From the NCBI GenBank assembly GCA_013822735.1, contig PNKZ01000026.1, positions 1-64,000 on the forward strand: a stretch of 64,000 bases of DNA. Direction: 5' to 3'. Position numbers and translations under genes: made by a program. The notes under the pieces are model-generated. The model saw only the letters and a list, made by a program, of their open reading frames with translations. It made no database searches and was not told the origin of the DNA. This DNA comes from Pirellula sp. (GTDB taxonomy: Bacteria; Planctomycetota; Planctomycetia; Pirellulales; PNKZ01). Positions 5,532 to 38,600 of the stretch are shown here, one piece after another; the first letter of the stretch is position 1; the number at the start of each line of letters is the position of its first letter.

Positions 5532-6707
5532 ATGGCCAAAACCCGCAAAAAACGCCGCAGCGCCCACGGCTCCGCGTGGCATTGGAAACAGACCGATTGC
5601 TGGTACTACACCCTGCCGGGCACGAAGCGCCGCATGTCGCTCTTCGATGAGCAGGGCGAACGGGTCCGCGGCCGGGAGAACCGCGAGGCCGCGGAAGCGG
5701 CCTTGGCACGACTCCGCCTTTCCGGGGATCTCAACGGCCAAGGGACCGTCCCCGAGGAAAACTGGATCGTGGCCCGCGTCTGCTCGGATTATCTCCAGTA
5801 CTGCGAGCGGAGCGTGAAAGGCGGCTCGATGAGCGGCGGGCATTACAGTCAGTCGAAGTCGTTTCTGAACGACTTGTGCGGCTATTGCGGCGCCTTGGCC
5901 GTCGCCGAACTCAAGAAGTCGCATGTTCAAACCTGGCTGGACGGGCACGCGGGCTGGAAGTCGAAAGCCACGCATCGTAGCGCCATCGCCGTCGTGCTGG
6001 CCGCTTTTAATCGGGCCGAAGAGTTGCACGACGTTCCCAGTCCGCTCAAAGGCCTTAAGAAACCGCAGTCGCAACCGCGGCTACAGTCCTTTTCGCCGGA
6101 CGAGGAACAGATGATCTACGGCGCTACGGAGGAACGGTTTCGCAACTTTCTCTTTGCAGCCCTGCATACCGGTCTGCGCCCCTTTTGCGAGTTGGCGAAG
6201 ATCACCGCCGACCACGTCGAGATCGGTGAACGCGGCATGATGTGGCGGGTCTATTCGTCGAAGACTAAGAAGACCCGCAAGATTCCGATTCAAAAGCCGG
6301 TCGCCGAACTGGTCAAAAAACTACTGCCGTCCGCCCCGCGCGGTTCCGGCCTGCCGTTGTTTCGGAACACTAAGGGAGAGCCCTGGAAACGAATGACAGG
6401 CGTCGTGCGATTCCTATCGCTGAAGAGAAAGCTTGGCTGGGACCTCGATCCGATCCGCGGCAAGTATTCCTGTTACACCTGCCGCCACACGTTCGCCCAT
6501 CGGATGCTGTCCGGATATTGGAACGACGGCGTCGGCTGCTCCATCGAAACGCTAGCCGAATTGATCGGCGATACGCCGACGGTGGCGTATTTGCACTACG
6601 CCCGAGAATGGGCGCTGAGCTACCAAGAGCCGCTGTGGGCGGCGATCGGCGCCGGAAAGACGAAACCGCCGGCGAAGTCCCAAAAACGATCTACACCCGC
6701 CCGCTAA
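5532..6707 (+). CDS. Tyrosine recombinase/integrase 1, 391 aa
   Basis: A site-specific recombinase of the phage integrase family. After a basic N terminus and a SAM-like core-binding domain (about residues 75-180), the catalytic domain shows box I Arg in HTGLRPFCELAKI, a beta-hairpin Lys in SSKTKKTRKIPI, box II CRHTFAHRML, and the nucleophile Tyr in AYLHYAREW. The usual His of HxxR and the His or Trp of the LGH motif are replaced (Tyr and Asp), a variation shared with the next gene. Ribosome site GAAAGGA precedes the ATG. It lies 17 bases upstream of a close paralogue, so the two are probably one transcript. It probably mobilises the island that follows. Confidence 0.93.
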   Translation: MAKTRKKRRSAHGSAWHWKQTDCWYYTLPGTKRRMSLFDEQGERVRGRENREAAEAALARLRLSGDLNGQGTVPEENWIVARVCSDYLQYCERSVKGGSMSGGHYSQSKSFLNDLCGYCGALAVAELKKSHVQTWLDGHAGWKSKATHRSAIAVVLAAFNRAEELHDVPSPLKGLKKPQSQPRLQSFSPDEEQMIYGATEERFRNFLFAALHTGLRPFCELAKITADHVEIGERGMMWRVYSSKTKKTRKIPIQKPVAELVKKLLPSAPRGSGLPLFRNTKGEPWKRMTGVVRFLSLKRKLGWDLDPIRGKYSCYTCRHTFAHRMLSGYWNDGVGCSIETLAELIGDTPTVAYLHYAREWALSYQEPLWAAIGAGKTKPPAKSQKRSTPAR

Positions 6708-6724
6708 AACTTTCGGAGGCCCGT

Positions 6725-7870
6725 ATGGCTCGCGAGCAATCTGCTTCCGCTCGTCGGCGTCGCCGCGGGTCGGCTTGGCACTGGAAGCAGACCGACGCCT
6801 GGTACTATACGCCCCCCGGCAGCAAGCGTCGGGTTGCCCTACGCGATGAACGAGGGCGGACGATTCGCGGGTTGAACAACAAGGAAGCCGCGCGACTGGC
6901 TCTGGCGCGCGTGCGTTTGCAGCAGGGTTTAAAGCCGAACGTCGAACCGGAGACGGTCGTCTCGTCACCGACGCTGGTCGTCGCGCAAGTCTGTTCCGAG
7001 TATGTCACGCACTGTGAACGGGCCGCGGCGGCGGGGCGTATGCATCCGGAGCATGCTCGATCGGTCCGACGCGTGCTCAATGAGTTTTGTCGCTATTGCG
7101 GAGCAGTACCCGCCGACCAGCTGAAACGCCCGGACGTCGCCCAATGGGTGCAGAGTGTTCCGGGGTGGCGTTCTCCGGTCACGAAAAGAAACGTCATCAC
7201 GACGATTATCTCGGCCTTTCGCCATGCCGAGACGGAGCACGACGTACGCAACCCGCTTAAAGGCTTAAAGAAGCCGCCTCATCGTCCCCGCTTGCATTCG
7301 CTCTCGCCGGAGGATGAGAAGCGCATCTATGCCGAGGTCGATCGGCCGTTCCGCGACTTCCTGTTCGCGGCCTTGCATACCGGTCTGCGTCCGTTCTGTG
7401 AGCTGGCCAAGCTGCGCGCCGAGCATGTCGAAGTGACGCCGCGCGGCATGCTGTGGCGCATCCATTCGTCGAAGACCATGAAAGTTCGCAAGATCCCGGT
7501 GCGGCCCGAAGTGGCTCTCCTCGTACGGCGACTTTTAAAGTCGGCGCCGGTGGGTAGCGGACGCCCGTTGTTTCGCAACCCGCAGGGCGGAGTCTGGAAA
7601 AAGCCGACGGCTGTGACGCGATTCTTGAAGTTGAAACGCCAACTGGGTTGGGACGTCGACGAGGTGCGGAAGCACTATTCGTGTTACAGCTGCCGACACA
7701 CCTTTGCGCATCGGATGCTCTCCGGATATTGGAACGGCGGCGTCGGCTGCTCGATCGAAGTGTTGGCGGAACTTTTGGGCGACACGCCGAAGACGGCCTT
7801 TGACCACTACGGCCGAGAATGGGGAAGGCACTATCAGGATCCGCTCTGGGCCGCGATCGGCGAGAAGTGA
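6725..7870 (+). CDS. Tyrosine recombinase/integrase 2, 381 aa
   Basis: A tandem paralogue of the preceding integrase with the same architecture: basic N terminus containing GSAWHWKQTD, core-binding domain, then HTGLRPFCELAKL (box I Arg), SSKTMKVRKIPV (Lys), CRHTFAHRML (box II Arg/His) and DHYGREW (Tyr nucleophile). Large blocks are identical between the copies (for example SGYWN-GGVGCSIE), so they arose by duplication, yet they have diverged in the N-terminal and core-binding parts, which suggests different DNA half-sites. The frame is open upstream to 6518, but the ATG at 6725 matches the start of the first copy. An intrinsic terminator follows at 7915-7943. Confidence 0.93.
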   Translation: MAREQSASARRRRRGSAWHWKQTDAWYYTPPGSKRRVALRDERGRTIRGLNNKEAARLALARVRLQQGLKPNVEPETVVSSPTLVVAQVCSEYVTHCERAAAAGRMHPEHARSVRRVLNEFCRYCGAVPADQLKRPDVAQWVQSVPGWRSPVTKRNVITTIISAFRHAETEHDVRNPLKGLKKPPHRPRLHSLSPEDEKRIYAEVDRPFRDFLFAALHTGLRPFCELAKLRAEHVEVTPRGMLWRIHSSKTMKVRKIPVRPEVALLVRRLLKSAPVGSGRPLFRNPQGGVWKKPTAVTRFLKLKRQLGWDVDEVRKHYSCYSCRHTFAHRMLSGYWNGGVGCSIEVLAELLGDTPKTAFDHYGREWGRHYQDPLWAAIGEK

Positions 7871-11411: not shown

Positions 11412-13481
11412 ATGGAAGATTTACCGTCGGAAGGCGCAGCGACCGCGGACGTTCGTCAGCAAGTCCACGCACGCTGGCTGGAACTCGCCGCGAAGTACGA
11501 AATCGATCTCAGCGATTTCCCCGGGGCGAAAGCCGAACTCGAGGAACGAATTCTCTGGGCTCGTCGTCGCGAGCTCGACGTCGCCGCGATTCTTTCGCGC
11601 TACTCGACGCAGATGCAGACGAGCACGCTCGCTCAGGTCATGGACTGCCTCGAATACGGCGTCGCACACGGCATGTACGTGCCGCCGGAGTTGATCTGCG
11701 TCGACGAAGGTATCTCGGGGCGTAAGGCCCGCCGTGCCGGTTTGGAACGCATGAAGAAGATTCTGAGCCAAAAGCGCTGCTCGGTGCTGTTGGTGTTCAA
11801 AGTCTCGCGGTTATATCGCGTCGGTTACCGCGGACTGCAGTTTTTTAACGAAGAAGTCGTCGAGAACGGTCTACGCGGCGTCTCGGTCACGCAGGGAATC
11901 GACACGGCCGACAAGAAGCAATGGCAAATGCTGTTGTACTTGCACGGTCTCATGGACGAAATGCTGCTGACGGCCATCAGCGATCACGTTCGTTCCGGCC
12001 TAAAGGACCTGTTTCGCCAAGGCTACGTCACGGGGGCGGTCGGCGTCGGCTTCACGCGTAAACCGATCGAAGGTGCGCCGACGACGAAGCGAGGATTGCC
12101 CCGCACAATGCCGGTGCGCGACGAACGGGCGCAACCCATCATCGTGCGGGCCTTCGAACGCGTCCGCGACGGCATGCCGTTGGCAAGAGCGCACCGGATG
12201 TATGTTGCCGAAGGAGGGCCGGCCGATCCGCGCTCGACGCTGGGGTATATGTCGTACCAAGCGTTTCGCCGCTTGCTCTCCAACCCGCGCTTGATGGGGA
12301 TTTGGGCGTTCGGCCGCAAGCGCAACGAATTCAGCACGAAGCGGGACTACACGCGGCAGATCGCGGGTCCGGAAATCGAAGTGCAGCTGATCCGCTCCGA
12401 CGAGCTGCGCGTCGTGGAGGACGAGCTGTTTTACGCGGTCCAGCAGGTCTTGGCCAAGCACAAGAGCGGGCCGCGCGGGCCCCGTAAGGCGCGAGCGATC
12501 GGGCATTTGGCCGATCTGGTGATCGATTGCTTCGTCTGCGACGCTTGTCCGCCCGAGTCGCCCGACGAGGAACCGGTCCGTTACTACAAGGCGGGAGCGT
12601 ACGGCAAGGCCATGAGCTGCAAACGCGGCCATCTTTGTCGTTGCCAGCTCCAAGTCGATCGCCGCAAAGCCGTCGAAGCGGTCCTGGCGACCCTTGAGAG
12701 TCTTGTCTTCAAGGACGCTCGGCTCGTGGAGACGATCGAGGCCGAAGCGGCGGCCTTTGACGCGCGAGAACCCATCGACGTTGAGCGTCAAGCGGAGGAT
12801 GTTCGTGGCCGACTCCGCTCGGCGGAACGCAAGGTCAAGATCTTGGTTTCCGCCGCGGGGCAGGACGACGAATCGAAGGACGACGACTTCGTCAAGCAAC
12901 TCACCGAAGCTCGCGCGAACGTTGCCCGGCTTCGGGGGCAGTTGGCACGCCTGGAACGTGACGCCGAGCGGCAAGCCGTGAAGATCACGCCCGAAGGCGT
13001 CCGCGCTTCATTGGCCGGGTTGTCGCGGTTACTGCACGACGCTGGCTGCGGCGTGTTGGGCGAGGAGGCGATGTTTAAGGCGGCGGCCGTGTTCCGGCGT
13101 TTAGTCGGCGGTCGTATCAGCGTACGTGGTGTGGCGCGAGCGGGGCGCGACCGGATGGTCGTCCAAGGCGTCTTCACGCCGCAGGTACTTCAGACCGTGC
13201 GGGAGGAACTGGGCTTGCCGGAGGCGACCCCGGCGGATGCCGAGCCGGTCGTCGTCTGGCTCCGCCCGCCGCCCCGTTGCGACCAGTTGGCCGAACGAGC
13301 CCATCAATTGATCGATTCGGACGGCCATAGTTTCCGCTCGGCGGCTAAGGAGATGACCACGCCGACGGAAAAGGTCACTTCGGCGCGCGTCTGGCAGCTC
13401 TATCAGCGTTACTACCAAATGATCGGCCAACCGGTTCCGAAGCGGCCTTACAACAACGGTCGCCCGCGCAGGGCGACCTGA
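11412..13481 (+). CDS. Large serine recombinase, 689 aa
   Basis: A resolvase/invertase-family recombinase. Order: extra N-terminal helical segment (1-55), catalytic domain with LSRYST (Ser65 as likely nucleophile) and DEGISGRKARRAGLERM, the recombinase domain (about 180-330), a zinc ribbon (CDAC near 378 and CKRGHLCRC near 407), a coiled coil (about 460-530), and a C-terminal helical segment. The motif normally DRLxR reads SRLYR (Ser132, Arg133, Arg136), so the conserved aspartate is replaced. Start ATG at 11412 has AAGGAG upstream. A very strong terminator follows. It probably provides a second mobility function for the island. Confidence 0.9.
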   Translation: MEDLPSEGAATADVRQQVHARWLELAAKYEIDLSDFPGAKAELEERILWARRRELDVAAILSRYSTQMQTSTLAQVMDCLEYGVAHGMYVPPELICVDEGISGRKARRAGLERMKKILSQKRCSVLLVFKVSRLYRVGYRGLQFFNEEVVENGLRGVSVTQGIDTADKKQWQMLLYLHGLMDEMLLTAISDHVRSGLKDLFRQGYVTGAVGVGFTRKPIEGAPTTKRGLPRTMPVRDERAQPIIVRAFERVRDGMPLARAHRMYVAEGGPADPRSTLGYMSYQAFRRLLSNPRLMGIWAFGRKRNEFSTKRDYTRQIAGPEIEVQLIRSDELRVVEDELFYAVQQVLAKHKSGPRGPRKARAIGHLADLVIDCFVCDACPPESPDEEPVRYYKAGAYGKAMSCKRGHLCRCQLQVDRRKAVEAVLATLESLVFKDARLVETIEAEAAAFDAREPIDVERQAEDVRGRLRSAERKVKILVSAAGQDDESKDDDFVKQLTEARANVARLRGQLARLERDAERQAVKITPEGVRASLAGLSRLLHDAGCGVLGEEAMFKAAAVFRRLVGGRISVRGVARAGRDRMVVQGVFTPQVLQTVREELGLPEATPADAEPVVVWLRPPPRCDQLAERAHQLIDSDGHSFRSAAKEMTTPTEKVTSARVWQLYQRYYQMIGQPVPKRPYNNGRPRRAT

Positions 13482-13518
13482 TTCTTTCACCGGTACCCAA
13501 AAGTCCTTGCGTCTCTAC

Positions 13519-13551
13519 GAGACCTCGCCTAGCGGCGAGGTCTCATTTTTT
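13519..13551 (+). terminator. Strong intrinsic terminator after serine recombinase
   Basis: A perfect 11-base-pair stem GAGACCTCGCC/GGCGAGGTCTC (13519-13529 and 13534-13544) with loop TAGC, followed by A and six T residues. Confidence 0.92.
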
Positions 13552-13563
13552 GGCGGAGTTCGA

Positions 13564-13791
13564 ATGCTCCCTTCAAACAGAAATGTCCATTCGTCGCCGC
13601 CTTCCGCGGCGGCCGTAGATGTCGAGCGACGTCAACTCGCGCGCGATCTGGCCGAACTCATCGTCCGACAACTGCGGCGACGGGCACAAGAAAGCGCTGA
13701 AGCAGGATCGGCACCCCCGCGGCCGACCACAGCTGCTTCTGTCCGCGGGAAGCCGTTGCCGACAACGGTTGTGAAGCGAGGCCCAGAGTAA
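13564..13791 (+). CDS. Small hypothetical protein, 75 aa
   Basis: A short, basic protein with a central helix (DVERRQLARDLAELIVRQL) and a disordered Pro/Thr-rich tail. The ATG at 13564 has GGCGGAG before it; a TTG at 13507 in the same frame lies inside the terminator stem region and is rejected. The helix resembles small DNA- or partner-binding proteins found in integrative elements, but no family was recognised. Confidence 0.45.
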   Translation: MLPSNRNVHSSPPSAAAVDVERRQLARDLAELIVRQLRRRAQESAEAGSAPPRPTTAASVRGKPLPTTVVKRGPE

Positions 13792-13826
13792 GTCGACCTA
13801 TTGAGCCTTTAGTGAGAGGAGTCCCT

Positions 13827-14480
13827 ATGCTCGACTCCTATCGGTCGTTGCTGCAGTACGGCAACTCCAAGCTCGGCCGGGCGATCCATGTCTGGTCGAT
13901 TCCGGCCATTGATACTTGCCCCGGCAGCACGGCCTTGTGTCGCAAGTTGTGCTACGCGACCCGTCATCGGTTTCGTTTCGAATCGGTCCGACGGCGCTTG
14001 GCTTGGAACCGCAGACAATGCGACCGCTCGGACTTCGTTGAGCGAATGATCGCCGAAATCCGCTCCAGCGGCGTCCTCGTGCTGCGAATCCACGTCGCCG
14101 GCGACTTTTATTCCGCCGCCTACGTGCGTAAGTGGATCGCCGTCATTAAGGCCTCTCCCCGCGTGCGCTTCTACGGCTACACCCGCAGCTGGCAGATCGC
14201 CTCGATCGCGCCGGCCTTAGCGGAACTCAGCCGCTTGGGAGCGCTGCGGTTGTGGTACTCGATCGACGCTGAAACCGGCGTCCCTCGCATTGTGCCGCCC
14301 CGTGTGCGGCTGGCCTATTTGCAGACGACTCCTGCGTCGCCGCCTGAGCAAGCGCACTTGGTCTTTCGACCGCAGCAGCTTCGGAATTTACCGGAACTAC
14401 CAACCGTCTGCGACCACGAAACCCCGGCCGGTAAACAACTCCGCGTGACCTGCGGTTCCTGCAGCCGCTGCTTTCGTTAA
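13827..14480 (+). CDS. GP88-family protein, 217 aa
   Basis: Resembles the phage 'gene product 88' family: NSKLGRAIHVWSIPAIDTCPGS followed by C-x4-CYA, then RIHVAGDFYSAAYVRKW and FYGYTRSW, ending in a cysteine cluster CGSCSRC. Such proteins have conserved cysteines that may bind a metal or cluster; their role is unknown but they are common in phage and plasmids. The ATG at 13827 has GAGAGGA upstream; a GTG at 13812 is a less likely start. Its presence supports a phage- or plasmid-derived origin for this island. Confidence 0.7.
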   Translation: MLDSYRSLLQYGNSKLGRAIHVWSIPAIDTCPGSTALCRKLCYATRHRFRFESVRRRLAWNRRQCDRSDFVERMIAEIRSSGVLVLRIHVAGDFYSAAYVRKWIAVIKASPRVRFYGYTRSWQIASIAPALAELSRLGALRLWYSIDAETGVPRIVPPRVRLAYLQTTPASPPEQAHLVFRPQQLRNLPELPTVCDHETPAGKQLRVTCGSCSRCFR

Positions 14481-14599
14481 GCGTTTCGACGGCCGTGGTA
14501 GCTGCTTCGGCGTCAACCTTCCCGTCCGGTCGTCAGCGACCGCGCTTACTCTGTTGATCGCCGCGGCTCCCGCAGCCTTCTCTTTTCTCGGAGGTTTAT

Positions 14600-15313
14600 A
14601 TGTCCGTCGTGTCCGTACCAGCGGCAGGTGTCGCTGATGCTTCGGCGGTGTCGCGCGTTCTGCAGCGTTGGCGGCGTCAGATCGCCGGCCGGCATGACTT
14701 GGCCGAACGTCGCGGCGTGCGGGAGTTCGCGCTCGTAGGCTACCGAACGCGCGTCGGCTTGGCCGAGCAATTGGTGCCACTCGAGCAATTATCGTTCGTC
14801 GCCCTGTTTGACGAGCGCGACGACGAAGATCGACTCGCGACGCGCTTGGTCGGCGCACGTGCTCGGCTGGCCGAAACGCAACTCGTCATCGGCGGCGCCG
14901 ACAACACGCTCTTCGATAAAGACGTGCGAGCCGCCCCGTGCTCGGGCAACGGCCGCCGTCTCGATCCGGGCGACGCGGAACTCTGTGAGCTGGCCCTGAG
15001 TTGGGAAAAGCATCTGGAACGCGTCAATCGCCATCCGCACTATCCGCGGCGCAACGTTTTGCGCTGGCCGACGTGGTGGTGCGAGGTCGCCGCCGCACCG
15101 GCCTACGTCCCGGCTCGCTGTCACGGCGGTCGCACACTGGTCGCGCTCGAAGCCGTGCTAGAGCTAACTCTGCCGATCCTTCGCGTGTTCGCGGACGTCG
15201 CAGGCTTGCCCAAACGTCAGGTCTTGGCAGGCAGTGACGCGCGACGGCTGCTCTGCGGTACGGCCGGCCCGGCCACGTTTGATCTCTTTCACACTCGCTT
15301 TCGCCGCGCTTAG
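14600..15313 (+). CDS. Hypothetical protein of the island, 237 aa
   Basis: A soluble protein of mixed helical pattern without recognised domain. Its central part (LVIGGADNTLFDKDVRAAP) and the aromatic segment RWPTWWCEVAAAP are notable but match no family I can name. GGAGG lies just before the ATG. It precedes the ubiquitin-like modifier gene by 44 bases on the same strand, so it may be part of the same transcript and could be a substrate or accessory protein of that system. Confidence 0.6.
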   Translation: MSVVSVPAAGVADASAVSRVLQRWRRQIAGRHDLAERRGVREFALVGYRTRVGLAEQLVPLEQLSFVALFDERDDEDRLATRLVGARARLAETQLVIGGADNTLFDKDVRAAPCSGNGRRLDPGDAELCELALSWEKHLERVNRHPHYPRRNVLRWPTWWCEVAAAPAYVPARCHGGRTLVALEAVLELTLPILRVFADVAGLPKRQVLAGSDARRLLCGTAGPATFDLFHTRFRRA

Positions 15314-15357
15314 GCGGTTGTTTCACTCTTTCGCGTTTTTTCCTGCAGGAGACACCC

Positions 15358-15579
15358 ATGAAGATTCTGTTCATCGACGCCACCGGCGCCGGCTTCGCCT
15401 CCCCGATCGAAGTAGCCGAAGGGACGACCGTCGGCACGCTGTTCTTGGAGCGCATCGGCGGCGATCCTAAGGCCTTTTTGATTCGCGTCAATCGTCAGAG
15501 CGCCACCGTCAATCAAGTGCTCCAGCCCGGCGACCGCGTCAGCATCACGCCGCTGAAGATCGAAGGTGCGGCGGCGTAA
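15358..15579 (+). CDS. ThiS/MoaD-like ubiquitin-like modifier, 73 aa
   Basis: A beta-grasp protein of the right size for ThiS, MoaD or prokaryotic ubiquitin-like proteins. The order is strand-strand (MKILFIDATG, PIEVAEGTTVGTLF), helix, then LIRVNRQSATVNQVLQPGDRV and a final strand SITPLKIEGAAA. The NQVLQPGDRVSITP block is the ThiS/MoaD signature. It ends in EGAAA rather than GlyGly, so either the tail is trimmed by the JAB peptidase encoded nearby or a single Gly is used. Linkage to E2, JAB and ThiF genes argues for protein conjugation, not thiamine or molybdopterin synthesis. GCAGGAG lies upstream of the ATG. Confidence 0.85.
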   Translation: MKILFIDATGAGFASPIEVAEGTTVGTLFLERIGGDPKAFLIRVNRQSATVNQVLQPGDRVSITPLKIEGAAA

Positions 15580-15591
15580 CCATTTTCTACC

Positions 15592-15634
15592 GGTCGGTAC
15601 GACGAGCTTGCCGCTTCGTTGTGCCGGCCTTTTT
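15592..15634 (+). terminator. Terminator/attenuator between modifier and E2 genes
   Basis: A 14-base-pair stem, 15592-15605 paired with 15616-15629 (including the core CGGTACGACGA with TCGTTGTGCCG, a few G-U pairs), followed by TTTTTC. It lies 12 bases after the modifier stop codon and before the E2 start, so it would reduce expression of the enzymes relative to the modifier. Confidence 0.8.
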
Positions 15635-15652
15635 CTGTTTGTGGAAACCACC

Positions 15653-16723
15653 ATGACTTGGAATCCTCAGCTTTGGCGGACGGCCCGGCGCTTGGAGGCG
15701 GCCTACCAAAGGCTCCGCGGTTCGCCGCCGACCTTGGACGCACCCTGGTACGCTTGGCAAAAACTCACCGAAACTTGCCGCTTGGCCGCACATGCCGACC
15801 GCCGCGGCTGGCGGTACGCCGGGCGGCGACAACGTGAGCAGCTCACCGGTAACCTCGATTACTTGCTCGGCGAACTCCGCACGCTGCGAGGTACGCTCGA
15901 ACGTCGCGGGCGCGACAAGCTTCCTCCGGCCGGCGAACTTTATGCCGAACTCGTGGCGGCCGAGGACGAATTCGGCGGCGTCGCCGTCCAGGACTTCGAA
16001 CTTTATGTCACGACGGATCCCATTCGCCTGGAAGGAATCTATCTCGGGCCGTTTGAGATTCGCTTGAACTTCGCGCGACTCGACGAACCGGAACCCTACC
16101 GGGTCGTGGCCTTAGAACCGCATCCGGCCCACGCTTCGCTCGGAACGACGCATCCGCACGTTCACGACGAGCGGATTTGTCTCGGGGAAGGCAAGGCCGC
16201 CGTGACGGCGGCGCTTGTCGAAGGACGCCTCGGCGACCTGTTTCAATTGATCAACCGCGTCCTACACACTTACGGCGAAGGCTCCGCCTACGTCGAACTC
16301 GACCGTTGGCATGGCACGCCCTGCCGTGAATGTGACGTGAGCGTCGACGAGGACGAGCTCTATACGTGCCGCGGTTGCGACGAGCCGCTCTGTGGTGAGT
16401 GCGTACAGACCTGCGACTGCGGCTCGGCCGCCTGCCATGACTGCGCCACGCACTGCACGGCCTGCGGCCAGACGACGTGCGGGCGGTGCTTGGCGACCTG
16501 TCCGGACTGTGAAGAGGAATTCTGCGCATCGTGTCTTGAAGGAGGACTTTGTCATGCTTGCCAAGAGGCGGAAGAAGAACGGGCGGCCGAACAAGAGGCC
16601 GACCGGGAAGAACTTGCCGAGTCCGACCCTGCGGTTCACGCCCCTGGCGTGGGCCAAGTTGTTGTTCTGGCGCGACCTCGGCACCACCGAAATCGGCGGC
16701 TTCGGAATCTCGGCCGCCGCTGA
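15653..16723 (+). CDS. E2-like conjugating enzyme with C-terminal Cys-rich RING-like domain, 356 aa
   Basis: Three parts are visible. Residues 1-110 are helical. Residues 113-215 show a ubiquitin-conjugating (UBC) fold pattern: beta strands leading to THPHV (167-170, in place of the E2 HPN motif) and ERICLGEG with candidate catalytic Cys176, then a terminal helix. Residues 224-303 contain 20 cysteines, mainly as CxxC pairs, plus His267, enough for four or more zinc ions; this resembles tandem RING or treble-clef fingers and suggests a built-in E3-like function. A charged tail follows. It would accept the modifier from the E1-like enzyme. The last 170 bases overlap the JAB gene in another frame. 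Confidence 0.82.
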   Translation: MTWNPQLWRTARRLEAAYQRLRGSPPTLDAPWYAWQKLTETCRLAAHADRRGWRYAGRRQREQLTGNLDYLLGELRTLRGTLERRGRDKLPPAGELYAELVAAEDEFGGVAVQDFELYVTTDPIRLEGIYLGPFEIRLNFARLDEPEPYRVVALEPHPAHASLGTTHPHVHDERICLGEGKAAVTAALVEGRLGDLFQLINRVLHTYGEGSAYVELDRWHGTPCRECDVSVDEDELYTCRGCDEPLCGECVQTCDCGSAACHDCATHCTACGQTTCGRCLATCPDCEEEFCASCLEGGLCHACQEAEEERAAEQEADREELAESDPAVHAPGVGQVVVLARPRHHRNRRLRNLGRR

Positions 16724-17369
16724 TCCGCTCTTGATCGAAGACGTCCGGCTCGTGAAACAAACCTGCTCGGCCGTGACCGTCAAATTCGACGACGCGGCGG
16801 TCGCGGACTTCTTTGACGAACACGTCGATCAAGGTCTGCCTCCGGAGCGTTTTTCCCGCGTCTGGATTCACACGCATCCGGGGAGTTGTCCGCGGCCGAG
16901 CGCCGTCGACGAGACGACGTTCGCCCGCGTCTTCGGTTCTTTCCACTGGAGCGTCATGTTCATCCTGGCTCGCGGCGGCGCGAGCTATGCCCGCCTGCAA
17001 TTTAAGGTCGGACCGGGCGGGGCTTGGGAGATCCCGGTCGGACTGGATTACGAGCAGGCCTTTCCGGCGACGGATCATGCGGCGTGGCGACGGGACTACG
17101 ACACGCTCGTCGCGACGGAGCCGCAGTGGAGTTTCGACGACGATTTTTACTCGCGTGGAGCGCCGGCCGATTGGCCGTTCGATCCCCGGGAATGGGAGGA
17201 TGTTTACGGTGGGACTTTTGATCTTCGATCGCTTCGACCGGCAGAGCGGCTTGGTGCCGACGGACCGCTTACGGAACTCCTGGGCGACGGTGATCGGCGT
17301 CGGCTCGATCGGCCGGCAAGTGGCCCTGCAGCTGACGGCGCTCGGGGTGCCGAAGCTGCAATTGATTGA
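16554..17369 (+). CDS. JAB/JAMM metallopeptidase (deubiquitinase-like), 271 aa
   Basis: A zinc-dependent peptidase of the Mov34/MPN/PAD-1 superfamily. The full JAMM set is present: Glu46 in TTEIGGFG, His106 and His108 in WIHTHPG, Ser116 and Asp119 with the exact HxH-x7-S-x2-D spacing. It should cleave isopeptide bonds to, or C-terminal tails from, the ubiquitin-like modifier. The start ATG has GGAGGA at 16541-16546. The C-terminal 150 residues have no recognised domain. The gene overlaps the E2 gene by 170 bases and the ThiF gene by about 161 bases, indicating tight translational linkage. Confidence 0.9.
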
Positions 17370-17880
17370 TCCCGATGAAGTCACGCGCACCAACATCACC
17401 AGCCAAGGTTATCTGACCGACGACATCGGCCGCCCGAAGGTGCAGGCGACCGGCGACGCTTGTCATCAGATCGAGCATCTCTTGGCCATCGAAGAGATCC
17501 ATGATCGGTTCCGCCGCTCGCTAGAAACCGGGCCGAACGTGTTCTGCTGCGTCGACAGTATCTCCGCGCGGGCCGCCATCTGGCGGGCCCTCGAAACCCG
17601 CTGCGCGTTTTGGGCCGACGGGCGGATGTTAGGCGAAACCATTCGCGTGCTCGCAGCCCATGCCGGCCAAGGACGCGAGCACTACCGGACGACGCTCTTC
17701 GCGCAAGGCGAAGCGCAGGCCGGCAGTTGCACCTCGCGGAGCACGATCTATGCCGCCAGTCTTGCCGCCGCGCTGATGGTCCATCAATTCGTACGTCACT
17801 TGCGCGGCGCGCCGCTCGATCCGGACGCGACGTTCAATTTTACAGCCGGCGAATACGTCGTGCTGCCGGTCGGCGTTTAG
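17209..17880 (+). CDS. ThiF/E1-like adenylating enzyme, 223 aa
   Basis: A ThiF/MoeB/E1-superfamily protein: nucleotide loop [10 protein letters not shown] (G30-x-G32-x2-G35), [12 protein letters not shown] (Asp54, Asp56), GRPKV (Lys77) and the CCVDS strand with Asp116. Cys174 in GSCTSRST is a candidate for the thioester. The usual NRQ after the Asp motif is changed to TSQ. It would activate the C terminus of the 73-aa modifier using ATP. GTG at 17209 has GGGAGG at 17194-17199 with good spacing; the ATG at 17200 touches that site and is less likely. It is short for an E1, like other minimal bacterial ThiF partners of E2/JAB systems. Confidence 0.88.
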
Positions 17881-17911
17881 CGCCGCCGCCGTCGGAATCT
17901 TGTGATCTCAG

Positions 17912-17950
17912 GCCGTCGCATCATGTGAGATGCGGCGGCTTTTTCTTTTT
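17912..17950 (+). terminator. Intrinsic terminator closing the conjugation cassette
   Basis: GCCGTCGCATC (17912-17922) pairs with GATGCGGCGGC (17929-17939), loop ATGTGA, followed by TTTTTCTTTTT. Confidence 0.9.
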
Positions 17951-17966
17951 AGGGAAAGGAATTTTG

Positions 17967-18140
17967 ATGAGCCCTTGTGAACTGGAACGGGCCGTTGCGG
18001 AAGCGACCGGCGAGACCCGGCGTGAAATCCGTCGTCGCGGCTTCCAACTCTTACCGGAAACGGAAGCGGCCGACGACGCGGAAGCGACCGTCGTCGACTG
18101 GGATGCGCTCGAGGCCGAGCGACCGGTGCTGTTTCCGTAG
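17967..18140 (+). CDS. Small hypothetical protein, 57 aa
   Basis: An acidic small protein beginning MSPCELERAVAEATGE and containing a short basic helix (TRREIRRRGFQLLP). Proteins of this look (ATGE...I-R-GF near the N terminus) seem familiar from planctomycete genomes, but no function is known to me. AGGGAAAGGA provides the ribosome site. It sits directly after the terminator of the conjugation cassette. Confidence 0.6.
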   Translation: MSPCELERAVAEATGETRREIRRRGFQLLPETEAADDAEATVVDWDALEAERPVLFP

Positions 18141-18225
18141 TCGCGAGTTCATCGCGTCGGATCCACCGAGCGGCGGCTGTGGCTGCCGTCTCCGGCCTCA
18201 CAAAAACTCGCCCGGGAGCGAACTC

Positions 18226-18399
18226 ATGGGGGCGCGCCACAAATTGAATCAGGCCTACGTCAATACCGCACTCTTGTGCGGCGGCATCGCGGGCCTCGTC
18301 ACCGAATCTTGGTTTTGGTTCTTCTTCGTCTGCTTAGTCTGTCTAGCCTGCAGTTACTACGACGGCGGGATCCGATCCGATCCGCGTCGCCGTCGCTAA
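18226..18399 (+). CDS. Small membrane protein, 57 aa
   Basis: A basic N terminus, then a hydrophobic region from about residue 14 to 43 rich in Phe, Leu and Cys that can form one long or two short membrane helices, and a charged C terminus ending in four Arg. Ribosome site CGGGAG lies upstream of the ATG. Function unknown. Confidence 0.5.
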   Translation: MGARHKLNQAYVNTALLCGGIAGLVTESWFWFFFVCLVCLACSYYDGGIRSDPRRRR

Positions 18400-22788: not shown

Positions 22789-23007
22789 AGTCCGCCTCCT
22801 GTTAGTTGTGAACCGGCTGCGAACCTATCGTAAAATTCGAACGTCGTCAAAGAAAAAGTGTCATTAACTACCCGGTGGGAAATCTCGTCCGTTACATCCC
22901 AAGCTACGACGACACCGGGTTAGGGCCGGCAACTGTTTATGACAGTTGCAGTCAATCGAACCGTGCCGTAGCCTGTGCGTTACAAAAGACCAGAAACGGA
23001 GCCGCCC

Positions 23008-23682
23008 ATGACCTTTGAGCAAGTCCCCTTTGGAACAAACAGCTTCGCGGAAAACCCTGAACCGCGGGTGCCTTGCGTGTTGCTGCTCGATGTTTCGTCT
23101 TCGATGGCCGGCGAGCCGATCGCGGAACTCAATGCAGGGCTAGTCGGCTATAAGGATGAATTGGCGGCAGATAGCTTGGCCGCGAAGAGAGTCGAAGTTG
23201 CGATTGTCACGTTCGGCGAACGGGTTGAAACGGTCTGCGACTTCACCACGGCCGAACAGTTTTTTCCGCCGACCCTGCAGGCGAACGGGTACACGCCGAT
23301 GGGCGCGGCGATCAATCAGGCCATAGACATGGTGACCCAGCGCAAGCAGGTCTATCGTTCCAATGGCATACTCTTCTACCGACCGTGGATATTCTTGATC
23401 ACTGACGGCGCGCCGACCGACGCTTGGCAAACGGCCGCCGAACGAGTAAAGCAGGGTGAATCTGCGAAAGCCTTCTCATTTTTCTCCGTGGGGACCGCAG
23501 AGGCCAACTTCGACATTCTGAAACAACTGTCGGTCCGAGAGCCGCTCAAGCTAAAGGGCGTGCGGTTCCGCGATCTCTTCAACTGGCTGTCCAATTCGCA
23601 GCAGTCCGTCTCAAGGTCTACGCCGGGAGAAGAGGTTAAACTTGAGAACCCCGTCACACCGAGCGGTTGGGCCAGCGTGTAG
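23008..23682 (+). CDS. TerY-like vWA-domain protein (TerY-P triad)
   Basis: A 224-aa von Willebrand factor A protein with intact metal-ion-dependent adhesion site: [11 protein letters not shown] (Asp28, Ser30, Ser32), GYTPMG threonine and LITDGAPTD. It is the first of three linked genes vWA, PP2C phosphatase and Ser/Thr kinase, the arrangement known as the TerY-P triad in tellurium-resistance-associated stress systems. It probably acts in the cytoplasm as a phospho-regulated scaffold. ATG at 23008 gives the compact start; a GTG at 22975 is possible. Confidence 0.88.
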
Positions 23683-23690
23683 CCGACCGT

Positions 23691-24464
23691 ATGTGGAAGT
23701 TGCTTTATCAGAGCGTTCGCGGAACTTCGCATGAGCGAAGCGGCAAAGACTGCCAAGACAACTGCTTGGCAACGACGCTTCAACTGCCTTCCGAGACATT
23801 CGTGCTTCTGGCCTGTGCGGACGGGGCCGGGAGCGCCCTATATTCAGAACTGGCTTCAAAATGCGCCTGCGAGATGGCGATCACGGAGGCCGCGAGATGG
23901 CTCGAAGAAAAGCAATCGCTATCCGGATTGACGTCGACGGATGTCAAACAATGGATCGAACAAATCCGTAGCCGACTTGGTGATTTGGCGGCGGAACGCG
24001 ATGTGGCCGTACGCGAGTTAGCGACGACCCTGCTGTTCGCAATTGTGGGTGAAGGGCAAGCGTGCTTCTTTCAAATCGGTGACGGAGTGATCGTCGTCGA
24101 AACCGACGGCGCCTATCGCCATGTGTTCTGGCCGCAGAACGGCGATTATGCGAACACGACGTATTTCATCACGGATCCCACGGCGATCGAGCGATTGCAG
24201 TTCGCCCAAGAGCAAAACCAAATTGATGAAGTCGCTCTTTTAACCGACGGGTTGCAGATGCTTGCTCTCACGTACTCCGAACAACGAGTACACGGACCTT
24301 TTTTTGCACCGATGTTTCAAACGCTTGGCGGTAGCGAAGCGGCCGAGGAACTATTCGCACCTCTGGCGGGCTTTCTTGGTTCGGCCGCCGTGAACGATCG
24401 AACGGACGACGATAAGACGCTGGTACTCGCCAAGCGCTGCGGCAAGGGCAATGAGACTATTTGA
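23691..24464 (+). CDS. PP2C-family protein phosphatase (TerY-P triad)
   Basis: A 257-aa PP2C-type phosphatase. Metal ligands are visible in KDCQDNC (Asp near the N terminus) and ACADGAGSALYSE (DG pair), with further family positions FQIGDGVIVV, LLTDGL and RTDDDKTLV. It should dephosphorylate Ser/Thr residues, probably targets of the adjacent kinase. It starts 8 bases after the vWA stop and overlaps the kinase start by 14 bases, so the three are one operon. Confidence 0.88.
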   Translation: MWKLLYQSVRGTSHERSGKDCQDNCLATTLQLPSETFVLLACADGAGSALYSELASKCACEMAITEAARWLEEKQSLSGLTSTDVKQWIEQIRSRLGDLAAERDVAVRELATTLLFAIVGEGQACFFQIGDGVIVVETDGAYRHVFWPQNGDYANTTYFITDPTAIERLQFAQEQNQIDEVALLTDGLQMLALTYSEQRVHGPFFAPMFQTLGGSEAAEELFAPLAGFLGSAAVNDRTDDDKTLVLAKRCGKGNETI

Positions 24465-26433
24465 TCCTCAAGGCCGCCCCGTCGAGTTGGGCGATGAGAT
24501 TGGCGCCGGGGGTGAAGGGACCGTTTACGAGGTCCGCGGTAACGCCCACTTGGTTGCTAAAACCTACAAGTCCCAGCCTTCGCCGGAAAAGGCGGCTAAG
24601 TTGAGTGCGATGGTCGCCGCCCAAGCAAACGGCATCGCAACGATGGCGGCGTGGCCTTCCGATACGCTGTGCTCACGGCCGAACGGTCCGGTCTCCGGGA
24701 TACTCATGCCGCGCGTACGGGACCATGAGGAGATTCACAACCTCTACAGTCCCGCGCACCGCAAGCTCAAGTATGCGGACAAGGACTGGGTCTTTCTTGT
24801 CCATACGGCGATGAATTGCGCGACCGCTTTCGAGGCATTGCATTCCCTCGGGTGCGTGATTGGTGACGTCAACCAAGGCAATGTCCTCGTTTCAAAACAA
24901 GGGACCGTTTTTCTGATCGACTGTGACTCGTTTCAGTTTTCTGCCAATGGACGAGTTATGCCGTGCGAAGTCGGCGTCGTGCATTTCACCCCTCCGGAAC
25001 TGCAGGGTAAGTCATTCCGGTCGGTAACGCGCACGCCGAATCACGACAATTTCGGTCTGGCGGTCCTCGTCTTTCATCTGCTGTTCATGGGACGGCATCC
25101 GTTCGCCGGCCGGTTCCTAGGTAGCGGCGAAATGCCCGTCGAACGCGCCGTGAGCGAGTTTCGTTTCGCCTACGGAAGGTCCGCGGCGGCATTGCAAATG
25201 GAACGTCCTCCCTGGACGCTTGCCGTCGGAGATCTCGCGCCGACGGTCCAGAACTTATTTGAGCGGGCATTTGTGCGTGGCTCCGAAGCGGGCGGCCGGC
25301 CGACGGCCCGCGAGTGGCGCGAACACTTGTCAGCGCTCAAGGGACGTCTGAGTTCATGTCCCAATGACCGTGGGCACCGCTTCGAGTCGGTCCTATCGCA
25401 ATGCCCGTGGTGCCGGCTCGTGCAGGCCGGGGCACCAAACTTCTTCGCCTCCATCACCATCGCGGCCACCGGGACAGGAACTTTTCAGTTCACGCTCGAC
25501 GTCGGTCCGCTGTGGAACGCCATTGCCAATGTTCCGCGCCCAAGTACGTTTTTCGGCCGAATGCCGTATGCGATTCCGCGCCCGATCACTCCGACGCCGT
25601 TACCGCCGCTCGAACCGGCGCCCGGCATGCGCAAGTACGTCGGCTGGGTAGCAAGTACCACAACGGTCCTAGCGCTCGCCACCGCGCTGATTTTGCCGTT
25701 CGTCGCTTATCTGGCGACGACGGTGGCCGTGGTTTTCCTAGTTTGGTGGCTTGGCATGTACGTGATGTCGCCAATTTGGTCGGAAGCGCGTCGCAGAAGC
25801 GCGGCCGTTCGGCGCAATCGTGCTGAGTTAGCTAAGGTACAAGCGCAATGGACCTCGTCGGCCAAAGAGTTCGATCAGGAATTTCAGCAAGAGTTGGCGC
25901 GGCTGACGCAAGCTCGTGAGCAGGTCCGACAATTACGCGGTGACTACCAAGGTGAGTTGCAAAACCTGGAGCGGGACTCATATCAGAGGCAAAAGAATCA
26001 ATACTTACAGTCCGTTTTCATTTCCGATCACAAGATCGAAAAAATCGGCGAAGGTCGAAAGGCAACGCTAGAGTCGGCTGGGATCGAGACTGCCTTCGAC
26101 GTTACGGATGCTCGAGTCGCGCGCATTCCGGGCTTCGGACCGACGCTTACCGCGTCGCTACTGGCTTGGCGCCGGACCGTCGAAGCGAGGTTCCAATTCA
26201 ATTCGAATCTCGGAATACCGGCCGTTGAGCGGCAAACTTTGAATTTCAGATTTGCGCAGCGCCAATCACAGCTTGAAACCCTGCTGCGAAACGGCGAACA
26301 CAGGTTGAGAGCCGTTCATCACCGTGCACGAGAACGAATGCTGGCACTTACAGGGGAAATTATCGAAAAAGAGTTATCAGTGATGCAAGCGGAAGCAGAT
26401 GCCGAATTAGCGATTGATCGAAAATGGACTTGA
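24451..26433 (+). CDS. Membrane Ser/Thr kinase with zinc finger, coiled coil and HhH (TerY-P triad)
   Basis: A 660-aa kinase. The catalytic domain (1-310) shows GAGGEGTVYEV (18-28), Lys37, VIGDVNQGN (Asp139, Asn144) and LIDCDS (Asp157, replacing DFG by DCD). It lacks the Arg before the catalytic Asp, as many TerY-P kinases do. Next come a CPWC zinc element, two transmembrane helices (about 393-435), a long coiled coil (about 445-525) and a helix-hairpin-helix (RIPGFGPTL, near residue 555). The kinase domain is cytoplasmic and the HhH suggests nucleic-acid contact. It forms one operon with the vWA and PP2C genes. Confidence 0.9.
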   Translation: MRLFDPQGRPVELGDEIGAGGEGTVYEVRGNAHLVAKTYKSQPSPEKAAKLSAMVAAQANGIATMAAWPSDTLCSRPNGPVSGILMPRVRDHEEIHNLYSPAHRKLKYADKDWVFLVHTAMNCATAFEALHSLGCVIGDVNQGNVLVSKQGTVFLIDCDSFQFSANGRVMPCEVGVVHFTPPELQGKSFRSVTRTPNHDNFGLAVLVFHLLFMGRHPFAGRFLGSGEMPVERAVSEFRFAYGRSAAALQMERPPWTLAVGDLAPTVQNLFERAFVRGSEAGGRPTAREWREHLSALKGRLSSCPNDRGHRFESVLSQCPWCRLVQAGAPNFFASITIAATGTGTFQFTLDVGPLWNAIANVPRPSTFFGRMPYAIPRPITPTPLPPLEPAPGMRKYVGWVASTTTVLALATALILPFVAYLATTVAVVFLVWWLGMYVMSPIWSEARRRSAAVRRNRAELAKVQAQWTSSAKEFDQEFQQELARLTQAREQVRQLRGDYQGELQNLERDSYQRQKNQYLQSVFISDHKIEKIGEGRKATLESAGIETAFDVTDARVARIPGFGPTLTASLLAWRRTVEARFQFNSNLGIPAVERQTLNFRFAQRQSQLETLLRNGEHRLRAVHHRARERMLALTGEIIEKELSVMQAEADAELAIDRKWT

Positions 26434-35608: not shown

Positions 35609-38600
35609 CTAATCGCCAGCAGGGCGTCGAAAGTCGATAGAGACGACAACCAATCCCTCGACGCCATCATTCGCCAGCAATTCGTGAGCGCGTTCTTCAA
35701 GAAGCCGAATAACCCCTTCGTAATCTACGGACTCGGTGCCAACGCCAGTTTCCCACTTTTGTTTATTCCCAGTCATGCCCACGACGTAAATCCCAAACCG
35801 AGACTTGTGCGCTCGTAGGTACTGGCCGACTAGTTGATTCTCTAATCTCTCTAAAAGTTGCGGGAGCGTCCATGCGAAGGCCCACTTTATTTCGATCGAC
35901 ACAGGCGCCGTCGCAGGATTCTCAATCCGGATATCAGGTCGCTGATCCTGATCAATCTCAGCCTCTTGCGGGCAGGTATATCGACTACGTGCTCGCTCCT
36001 CAAGTTTTCTCTTGAGCCAACGTCGAAGTCCCGATTCGTTATCGTTACGATGCACTTCTTCGCGAAGGCTATTGTCAGACGCTTCAACATCGTATTTGAT
36101 TTCCTCAAGGCGCTTGCGCACAATTTTGAAGAGTTCGTGGTCAGATTTAGGGCTCGCTTCGTGTTCAGTGGCAAACGCACGAACATCGTTAAGAGTCCAA
36201 GGGAGACCATCGGCGTCAATATCGATGCGCTCATCGAGCAAGTGGCGCATCCAATCGCGTTCGGGAAGCAACGACGCGTCTTCAATCAGTTCTCGCAATA
36301 CATTCCCGGCACCAGGATCATCAATGCGGCTCAGCTGCGTCAGCAGTTTGTTGCGAAACGACTCCGCACCGTCGCGTGCCGTGGGTGAGTACGCGCCTCC
36401 GCTACGATCGAGATCGTCGCACGAGCGAACGTGACGGTATACCAATGGAATCAGTTTCCGCAGCGCTTTCGAGGTGAGGAAACTCGGCTCCGCTACGATT
36501 GGCAATCGCTCGCGACGTTCGCCGTCGAGCATATTGCAAATAGAAATCATGACGTCATCCGCCATTGATTGACCATGAAGTCGCGATTCCAATATCGAGA
36601 CAACAGAGTCTGCGTCACCTTGCAGGCCGACGGCGCACCACAATGTGAACGCTGAATGGTCGATTGAAAGCGTTCCACACCGATCAATAGCGATCCTGAG
36701 AAGAGATGGGGCGACTGAACTACCCGACTTGAGCAATAGCGAGAGAGCCTGCTCGAGAATTGAATGATTATATGGATCGCCGATTGTCAATTGATCAAGT
36801 ACTGTATCACGAACAAGACTCGCCAGTGTTCCTGATACCCACGCAAGATCAGCAAGCACGTCGTTCGCAAGGTATCTGTCAGCAGGGTATTTCCATTCCC
36901 CCTCAACACATGCCCGAAGTACTTTGCCGACAGGCTCGGGATGCCGCTGAGCGAGAGCATTGAACCAGACGGGAAATCCATTGAGTTCGTTCACTGCATA
37001 GCGTGCCGCGAGTTCGGCGTGTTGGGCCGTTAAGTCGTCGAAATTCAGTTCATTATCGACGATAGACGCTTGTAGGCCTCCAAGTCCCACGACGACGCGG
37101 TGGTCTGTTTCATTTGGCACGGGCTTTTCGTGCGGCAACTCCGGCTCGAAGTGCGTCCATGCCCTTTTGCATCCTGTACGAGCAGCCCATGTAATCAACC
37201 GGCCTCTCTTTTTTTTCAAAGCATCCCAATTGCTCGGTGCCCAATGGCGACGGTCCTTATCCGTCTCTTGGCAGAGAAACGACAGCCAGCCCGTCTTTCG
37301 TCCGGAACTAAGAACTCTCAAATGCCGGTAGAACATCCATTGGTCTCGCAGGCGCCGCAAAGAGCGCCTCGGGCGGTCGATCAGACGAGTCTTCCACGTC
37401 TCCCACCAATATGAATCACTAAGATTGAACCTAAGTTGTCGCAGGCGGGCAAACCGAGCGGATCGGAATGCCGTCTCCGCGATTGTGCGTAGCGTCTGGT
37501 TTGCACTTACCGCTTGCCTGATCTGGCGCCGTTCGCTCGCTTTTCGTCCGAAAAACGACCAGGCATACAAGGCGATATTGAGAGCAAGCTCTCTATCGGC
37601 CGCATCAGCACACGTCCGAACGTCCTCCAACAGCCATGCAAGGTCCGTCCGATCCCAATGGACGAGGGATCGGTGCCGAGACAGACTATGAAAGTGAACA
37701 GTCTCTGGAGGATTCGCGGTGCGACACTCCCAAACAGCATTCCAAAAACAAGTACGCCGCACACTTGGATGGTAGGCAGTCAATCTTTCGATGTTTTTCG
37801 TTTCGGTATGAGGTCGTTGCAGAAAGAAGACGGATCGTCCGAGCATCATTAGTGCCTTCGCCGCATCCGTACATTCCTGGGATGTGAGTGACGGCTGGCA
37901 GAGTACCGAATTTAGAACGACGGGAAGAATATCGACGATCCACACGAACTGTTCTGATATTCCCGTTGATGTGTTGCCAACCGAAACATGCGGCGCCGTT
38001 TGGGCCAATTCAAGCAGCTCAGCCAACAATAGGCCGCCGTTTTTCAACGGATGGCATTCTTTGAGATGCGATACGATCCGCCATGAATCAACTTGCCGTT
38101 CCGAACTGACGATTCCTTTGCGAAGAATCGACACGAATGTCGATTCATCCAGGGCTTCAGGATAGAGCGCTTCGCAGATCAACGAAGAAAGGGCGCTCGA
38201 CATGTGAGGCGTCGTCGAAGCGTACTCTCGAAGTCGCTGCTTGATGCTGGTCGTTCCAATATCGCGAACCGCAGCCACGGCGCTTTGCTTCAGATCATCG
38301 GGCTCTTCATCCGATGTAATGATGCCAATGACGGTATCAAGGCACGTCGGAAGCGGCCCAAAGCGCACAATCGAGAGAAATTCATTACGCACGTCCGTGG
38401 AGAGCGTTCGATCGGAGACATACCGCGAAATGTCATCGCTAAGATCCGGGGTAGCGAATCGCCGGATCATATCTCTGGATGTTTGAAGCCATACGCGACG
38501 TCTATCTCGATACCGCGTCGCAATAGCTGCAAGAAGTGATTGTTTGTAAGCGACGGACAACGCCGCAGGATCGCCAAGCTCTAGAAAGATCTCAGGGCTT

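Follow-up and report, generated by a model that had tools for sequence, protein, structure and literature searches.

A candidate mobile ubiquitin-like conjugation cassette with a cysteine-rich E2-like protein in planctomycetes and on viral contigs

Here, we have analysed a stretch of 64,000 nt from Pirellula sp. (contig PNKZ01000026.1 of assembly GCA_013822735.1, forward strand), to which all positions refer and which we call the window. Four consecutive plus-strand genes at 15358-17880 encode, in this order, a ubiquitin-like modifier (Ubl), an E2-like conjugating enzyme, a JAB protease and an E1-like activating enzyme. The E2 and JAB frames overlap by 170 bases, as do the JAB and E1 frames, and overlaps are also found in near relatives such as locus L002. 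Judged from the sequences, this cassette is probably a self-contained, mobile and reversible Ubl-conjugation system. The original prediction, made from the letters of the window, had proposed a complete cassette of this kind. Its four genes and their coordinates are correct, the HPHV, JAMM, GxGxxG and DPDEV motifs that it named are all present, and the complete look of the cassette is borne out by gene content, gene order, motifs and recurrence in related genomes.

The four genes are conserved as a block. We clustered 45 neighbourhoods, two of which (L003 and L083) are one contig, leaving 44 distinct loci; 41 of these have a match to the E2 profile, and L004, L005 and L081 do not. All four core genes are found in 37 of the 41 distinct E2-bearing planctomycete loci. 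The four incomplete loci comprise L068, L070 and L076, which stop at a contig end, and L080, a decayed copy. L080 and L081 come from genomes of one genus and share flanking clusters, with the decayed cassette in the former and a short E2 remnant in the latter. Gene order was flagged as broken in L056 and L058; we do not read these two as rearranged because the E2 frame was called too long at its start there and overlaps the Ubl gene. Searching IMG/VR with the E1 and JAB alignments gave 33 and 24 loci on 48 distinct viral contigs, some of them near-identical, and all four genes stand in order on 42 of the 48 (30 of 33 fetched with E1 and 21 of 24 fetched with JAB). The conservation of the block in both collections, together with the near-invariant catalytic residues described below, places the cassette beyond chance.

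Residue conservation was counted over unique rows, with planctomycete and viral sequences pooled. The Ubl ends in KIEG-AAA. G70 is found in 78 of 81 rows and A71 in 73 of 81, with a short tail after the glycine, so that the protein has the C-terminal glycine of a modifier in a form that JAB could expose. The Ubl profile matched nothing in the PDB, and neither the Ubl nor the E2 was matched in the PADLOC scan. JAB carries the JAMM motif, E...HxH-x7-S-x2-D, in the form of E46 (86 of 86 rows), H106-T-H108 (both histidines in 85 of 86), S116 and D119 (both in 85 of 85). Scanned as a single sequence, it touches Prok-JAB at 0.0075, below the Pfam cut-off, and the PADLOC scan returned weak JAB matches (best 0.00083).

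The E2-like protein starts at an ATG at 15653 that is common to near relatives; a longer GTG frame begins at 15566. Its HPHV motif occupies residues 167-170 and gives the His-Pro-x arrangement shortly before the catalytic cysteine that is the hallmark of UBC enzymes, with H167 and P168 each found in 83 of 84 rows, H169 in 77 of 84 and C176 in 84 of 84. The window protein has no Pfam match and no useful match in NCBIfam or PADLOC, and its profile matched no UBC sequence in the PDB. Among 38 proteins of the E2 family, no Pfam family was matched by two or more, and one of them touches UQ_con at 0.14. In the AlphaFold2 (AF2) model built with 38 sequences (predicted local distance difference test score, pLDDT, 88.6; predicted template modelling score, pTM, 0.64), a helical N-terminal part (5-86) is followed by elements in UBC-like order between 93 and 205 and then by a cysteine (Cys) array. 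The UBC-like elements are alpha1 (93-107), strands (111-153), Cys176 and alpha2 (178-189), with Cys176 just before alpha2. When the model was compared with the PDB by Foldseek, E2 enzymes topped the list, and about 37 of the 50 rows are E2 by title. VIA returned E2-25K (Z 6.8, 117 residues, 3.3 Å) and UBE2S (Z 6.6, 125 residues, 4.2 Å), which stay below the score that the tool treats as safe, and most of its rows other than E2 align to the N-terminal helices. Among viral models, Foldseek found three matches at E<=0.001; none of the matched proteins has a named function, the TM-scores are at most 0.27, and nothing is drawn from them. The modelling suggests that the protein is likely to have a UBC fold. 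For the fold that had been predicted in residues 113-215, and whose absence was to refute the original prediction, the AF2 element order and the top of the Foldseek list speak in favour, whereas no structural match is significant; the refuting outcome did not occur.

After residue 224 of the E2-like protein there are 20 conserved positions, all Cys, spaced C-x2-C-x11-C-x2-C-x4-C-x2-C-x3-C-x(1,2)-C and onward, which would hold up to five zinc ions. The description of this region as RING-like stands in part. Profile matches to RING, B-box and FYVE domains, with Midline-1, RNF31, TFIIH p44, FYVE and TRIM21 domains among them, are weak (best E 0.0012) and could reflect cysteine content, while the His ligand and the spacing of a canonical RING are absent.

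Among the window's cassette proteins scanned singly, the E1 alone has a strong family match (ThiF, PF00899, 1.7e-18). It contains GxGxxG and the conserved D, N and K of the E1/ThiF family. The Gly, Asp, Asn, Gln and Lys site columns are occupied in 83-86 of 86 rows, and C177 is found in 84 of 85. Its relatives in the PDB include PaaA, MoeB, MccB, ThiF, UBA5 and BubCD, and in PADLOC its matches are to E1-E2 models, over their E1 part (best 1.5e-15). In a review (PMC12355090), UBA5 is presented as the minimal E1, and its Cys250 is placed in the crossover loop. The window E1, of 226 amino acids (aa), is likewise short and without a Cys domain, and by analogy its C177 may correspond to Cys250 of UBA5.

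The cassette is also carried by DNA classed as viral. Terminases were looked for in 46 of the 48 IMG/VR records (L102 and L109 omitted). PF03237 matches 10 records (8 over the cut-off) and PF17289 matches 8 (4 over the cut-off), which makes 13 of the 46 in union, 10 of them over a curated cut-off. Since 33 of the 46 have no terminase match and none of the records has a completeness rating of 90% or more, some of these records may be mis-called or fragments. That all of them are mis-called bacterial DNA was considered and rejected in view of the terminases in 13 of 46 and of the terminase, portal and head-tail adaptor genes recognised with PHROGs. L155 and L142 lie on one 44.6-kb contig, where a RecE-like exonuclease follows the E1 and the genes for a terminase (phrog_2, 5.9e-34) and a head-tail adaptor are found some 8-9 kb away from the cassette. 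An exonuclease VIII-like gene follows the E1 in L097, and L154, on the same contig, has a terminase and a portal. In L120 an intein-interrupted terminase (13378-16425, with a LAGLIDADG-like domain) lies 4.7 kb after the E1, downstream of the cassette; in L092 a DnaB-like gene lies 5.7 kb after it. The L091 contig combines a full planctomycete-type set with a serine recombinase and a terminase. We also observed that L100, L115 and L140 have two or three E2-like genes close together, and that the JAB frame of L115 is 1333 aa long.

Among named phages, the E1 matches 75 records, including crAss-like and Flavobacterium phages, at 25-30% identity among the matches listed. One E1 homologue, gp76 of Bacteroides phage crAss001 (L148 6560-7717), lies in the replication region and adjoins an annotated metalloprotease. 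In the crAss001 region and four other phage regions the E1 profile alone matched (E<=10), and our claim of a whole cassette does not extend to these regions. A tblastn search with the E2 found no match in the phage and plasmid collections. Degenerate-pattern searches of the viral contigs with the E2 alignments met with no conserved stretch in one case and gave 10 candidates in another, none of which was confirmed.

The planctomycete copies show several signs of mobility. The E2 gene was detected in 31 of 396 genomes from the order and in 16 of 392 phylum-sampled genomes (both figures include the window's genome), and a single genome has up to five matches; in the window's genome there are three copies of the E1 and E2 genes, one on contig C26 and two on C5. 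A serine recombinase cluster is drawn in 16 of the 41 maps, the window included (15 upstream and 1 downstream), or 17 by cluster membership. Patchy presence, multiple copies and the serine recombinase thus support the mobile-element setting of the original prediction. In the E1 tree, which has one aberrant row (L077) and unsettled bootstrap and was used for same-genome grouping only, copies from the same genome fall in different groups (the window and L011; L064 and L065; L049 and L050-L052). This placement suggests that the cassette may have been acquired repeatedly. DNA homology between the window and the same-genus copy L069 spans 13827-18308; the Gp88-like gene lies inside this stretch, which is common to L002 and L069 at 75% DNA identity, and homology with L002 stops at 18308.

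The genes around the cassette fall into two subtypes, and those of the window are listed in Table 1. In the first, an AAA+ ATPase accompanies the cassette (25 of the 41 loci), and DUF1257 (24), DUF2997 (24), p57 (35), the helical cluster c1 of about 314 aa (29), c13 (26) and a gene that looks Toprim-like by eye (10) are counted over all 41 loci. The ATPase matches PF00004 at 3.6e-32 in L061, with a single AAA match. DUF1257 (PF06868) is matched at 6e-05 in L061 and, below the cut-off, at 0.0013 in L062, and DUF2997 (PF11211) at 7.7e-16 in L062. An AAA profile also matches 16 of the 46 viral records at E<=1e-10. The closest solved sequences to the ATPase are AFG2, Cdc48 and p97 (8e-53 to about 1e-49), from which it differs in having one AAA match and a different N-terminal part; it may also resemble Ycf46. 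In the second subtype, that of the window, P0006 precedes the Ubl gene and p57 follows the E1, with a Gp88-like gene in L001, L002 and L069. P0006 and p57, conserved beside the four genes, had not been mentioned in the original prediction. The P0006 proteins of relatives align with the window copy at 28-73% identity. No Pfam, NCBIfam or PADLOC family matched p57, and in the NCBIfam scan of the seven proteins of the window's block no model reached its own cut-off. What had been called an unusual composition is better described as a recurrent family with two neighbourhood subtypes and without a model of its own in the libraries scanned.

Table 1. Features of the window in and around the cassette.
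Feature	Position	Strand	Basis or remark
Two tyrosine-recombinase-like genes	5532-6707, 6518-7870	+	Left part of the island
Large serine recombinase, 689 aa	11412-13481	+	PF00239 1.2e-16, PF07508 7e-07
Gp88-like gene, 222 aa	13812-14480	+	PF17338 1.5e-33
P0006, conserved gene, 237 aa	14600-15313	+	In 8 of 41 distinct E2-bearing loci; no Pfam family
Ubl, 73 aa	15358-15579	+	ThiS 0.0042 (below cut-off); conserved G70
E2-like enzyme with Cys array, 356 aa	15653-16723	+	H167-P168-H169, Cys176; AF2 pLDDT 88.6
Predicted UBC-like core, residues 93-205	15929-16267	+	AF2 element order; E2s top the Foldseek list, non-significant
Cys array, residues 224-303, 20 cysteines (10 pairs)	16322-16561	+	Conservation 0.95-1.0, 42 rows
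JAMM/JAB protease, 271 aa	16554-17369	+	JAMM residues; closest PDB sequences Rpn11-like, E 0.014
Minimal E1, 226 aa	17200-17880	+	PF00899 1.7e-18; near-invariant C177
p57, small conserved protein, 57 aa	17967-18140	+	Cleaned profile matches 35 of 41 distinct E2-bearing loci
Small frame, 57 aa, right edge of conserved stretch	18226-18399	+	Cluster c29 in 6 distinct loci

The downstream member of the tyrosine-recombinase-like pair matches PF00589 at 3.8e-07; the other product co-clusters with it (c41). DNA homologous to this region adjoins the cassette in L069 and L070. Elsewhere in the window, three consecutive genes at 22975-26433 (+) are vWA-like, PP2C-like and kinase-like and resemble by eye a TerY-P triad, and a 1434-aa protein is encoded at 35609-39913 (-) with a P-loop-like stretch near its N-terminal start, also by eye.

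Several observations weigh against the conjugation reading. None of the Foldseek matches of the E2 model to the PDB reaches E<=0.001, the best being 0.25; only 4 of the 50 VIA rows are E2, and Z values of 6.3-6.8 belong to what the tool regards as possibly common. An AF2 run of the E2 with five sequences gave pLDDT 45.7 and supports no claim. The glycine tail pattern is absent in 6 of 46 viral Ubl frames, and L121 and L122 have no recognised E2. The window copy itself has no AAA gene. Moreover, a cluster of AAA, DUF1257, DUF2997, c1 and c1b genes without Ubl genes is found in the window's own genome (L162, contig C14, 4388-8895), which shows that the ATPase module can stand alone, and its link to the cassette may be loose.

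We infer every enzymatic step of the following cycle, and the binding of zinc, from the residues and genes described above. JAB would cut off the few residues that follow the conserved glycine of the Ubl (KIEG/A...). The minimal E1 would then adenylate this glycine and take the Ubl on Cys177 in the manner of UBA5, and the Ubl would move from the E1 to Cys176 of the E2, whose C-terminal zinc array could give it an E3-like docking module of its own. Lysines of target proteins would then receive the Ubl, and JAB could also take it off. At the 25 of 41 planctomycete loci that have the Cdc48/p97-like AAA+ ATPase, this enzyme may act on tagged targets; the window subtype carries P0006 and the Gp88-like gene in its stead.

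What could such a system be for? Our leading guess is that it modifies replication or recombination proteins, or host proteins, to the benefit of the element. A reading that we hold tentatively is that the cassette is a tool of phages and mobile elements that tags host or element proteins in replication and recombination or counters host defences, the planctomycete copies being relatives moved by the serine recombinase. It is suggested by the RecE-like and exonuclease VIII-like genes that lie a short way downstream of the E1 in L142 and L097, by the DnaB-like gene in L092, by the E1 homologue that crAss001 has in its replication region and by the L091 contig with its full planctomycete-type set, recombinase and terminase. 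It finds less comfort in the planctomycetes, where no intact-prophage link is seen since PF03237 matches 3 of 20 genomes and never at the cassette; other terminase families were not tested in these genomes. We likewise rejected an intact prophage as an explanation of the window element, PF03237 being the only terminase family tested. A bolder form of the same reading, to which we give somewhat less credence, is that tailed phages and planctomycete elements share a full Ubl cascade (a modifier, an E1, an E2 that has a zinc array as its own E3 module, a JAMM protease and, in many cases, a p97-like ATPase) that marks replication and recombination proteins, a virus-borne counterpart of ubiquitin and p97.

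Less probable is an anti-phage defence cassette of the BIL or Bub type, by Bub presumably being meant the multiubiquitin/DUF6527 operons. A patchy, multicopy distribution and a BIL-like composition of Ubl, E2, JAB and E1 would fit it. The hallmarks of BIL, Bub and CBASS that we tested are absent, and some of the contigs that carry the cassette also have phage head genes, a recombination exonuclease following it on two of them; both findings are compatible with defence against rival elements. That viral contigs carry the cassette, twice with recombination genes close by, favours a function in mobile elements over one in defence. The suggestion in the original prediction that the cassette is plausibly defensive has found no support: no link to defence was found, and a defensive role is possible but unsupported. 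A sulfur-carrier or small-molecule pathway with ThiS/ThiF-like chemistry instead of protein conjugation is improbable, for although the best PDB matches of the E1 are PaaA, MoeB, MccB and ThiF and the Ubl touches ThiS, an E2-like protein with near-invariant HPx...C and a JAMM protease accompany the E1 in 37 of 41 loci, and the seven block proteins match no other thiamine or molybdopterin partner families.

The cassette would be a compact four-gene Ubl cascade, with a minimal E1, what seems to be an E3-like module within the E2 and often a link to a Cdc48/p97-like ATPase, present in bacteria and on viral contigs. With it, direct experiments could ask how ubiquitin-type tagging originated and why it is found on mobile elements. 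We would like to add that such loci may escape present annotation because the window's E2 has no useful match in Pfam, NCBIfam or PADLOC.

Among known systems, BIL operons resemble the cassette in that they too are small and combine genes for a Ubl, an E2, a JAB and an E1. As PMC11354881 describes them, BilA has two Ubl domains, BilB a CEHH motif, and the BilD E1 two adenylation domains and a Cys domain. In contrast, the cassette Ubl is a single domain of 73 aa; its E2 has HPH before the cysteine, and the first His after Cys176 is His205; and its 226-aa E1 aligns with the 453-position BilD model over residues 30-128 at 24.6 bits. Type II CBASS has a CD-NTase and a fused E2-E1, Cap2, whereas E1 and E2 are separate genes here, no CD-NTase was matched by PADLOC among the seven block proteins, and the PADLOC E1-E2 models match the E1 only. 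Type 6d operons of Iyer 2006 have separate small Ubl, JAB, E1 and E2 genes, as here (PMC1779556). Their E2s are described there as lacking the classical His, while His167 of the cassette E2 is near-invariant, and the operon section of PMC1779556 does not describe a Cys array such as the cassette E2 has.

Multiubiquitin/DUF6527 operons, which are type 6e-like, also lie on mobile DNA and include genes for a Ubl, an E2 and a ThiF protein. Two plasmid loci have multiubiquitin and DUF6527 genes with E1s at 29% and 34% identity to the window E1, and neither family was matched in Pfam by any of the seven block proteins. The PRTRC_ThiF model scores 32.5 bits against a cut-off of 144.75, and no other PRTRC model matched the seven proteins. 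Prokaryotic operons combining RING-type E3, E2, E1, JAB and Ubl genes, that is, an E3-like zinc domain with the same enzymes, were reportedly described by Burroughs in 2011. We found no description of the planctomycete and phage family in the titles and beginnings of abstracts searched, most subscription papers lying beyond that coverage. The cassette, which lacks the hallmarks tested, may be taken as a new variant beside BIL, type 6d, multiubiquitin/DUF6527 and PRTRC.

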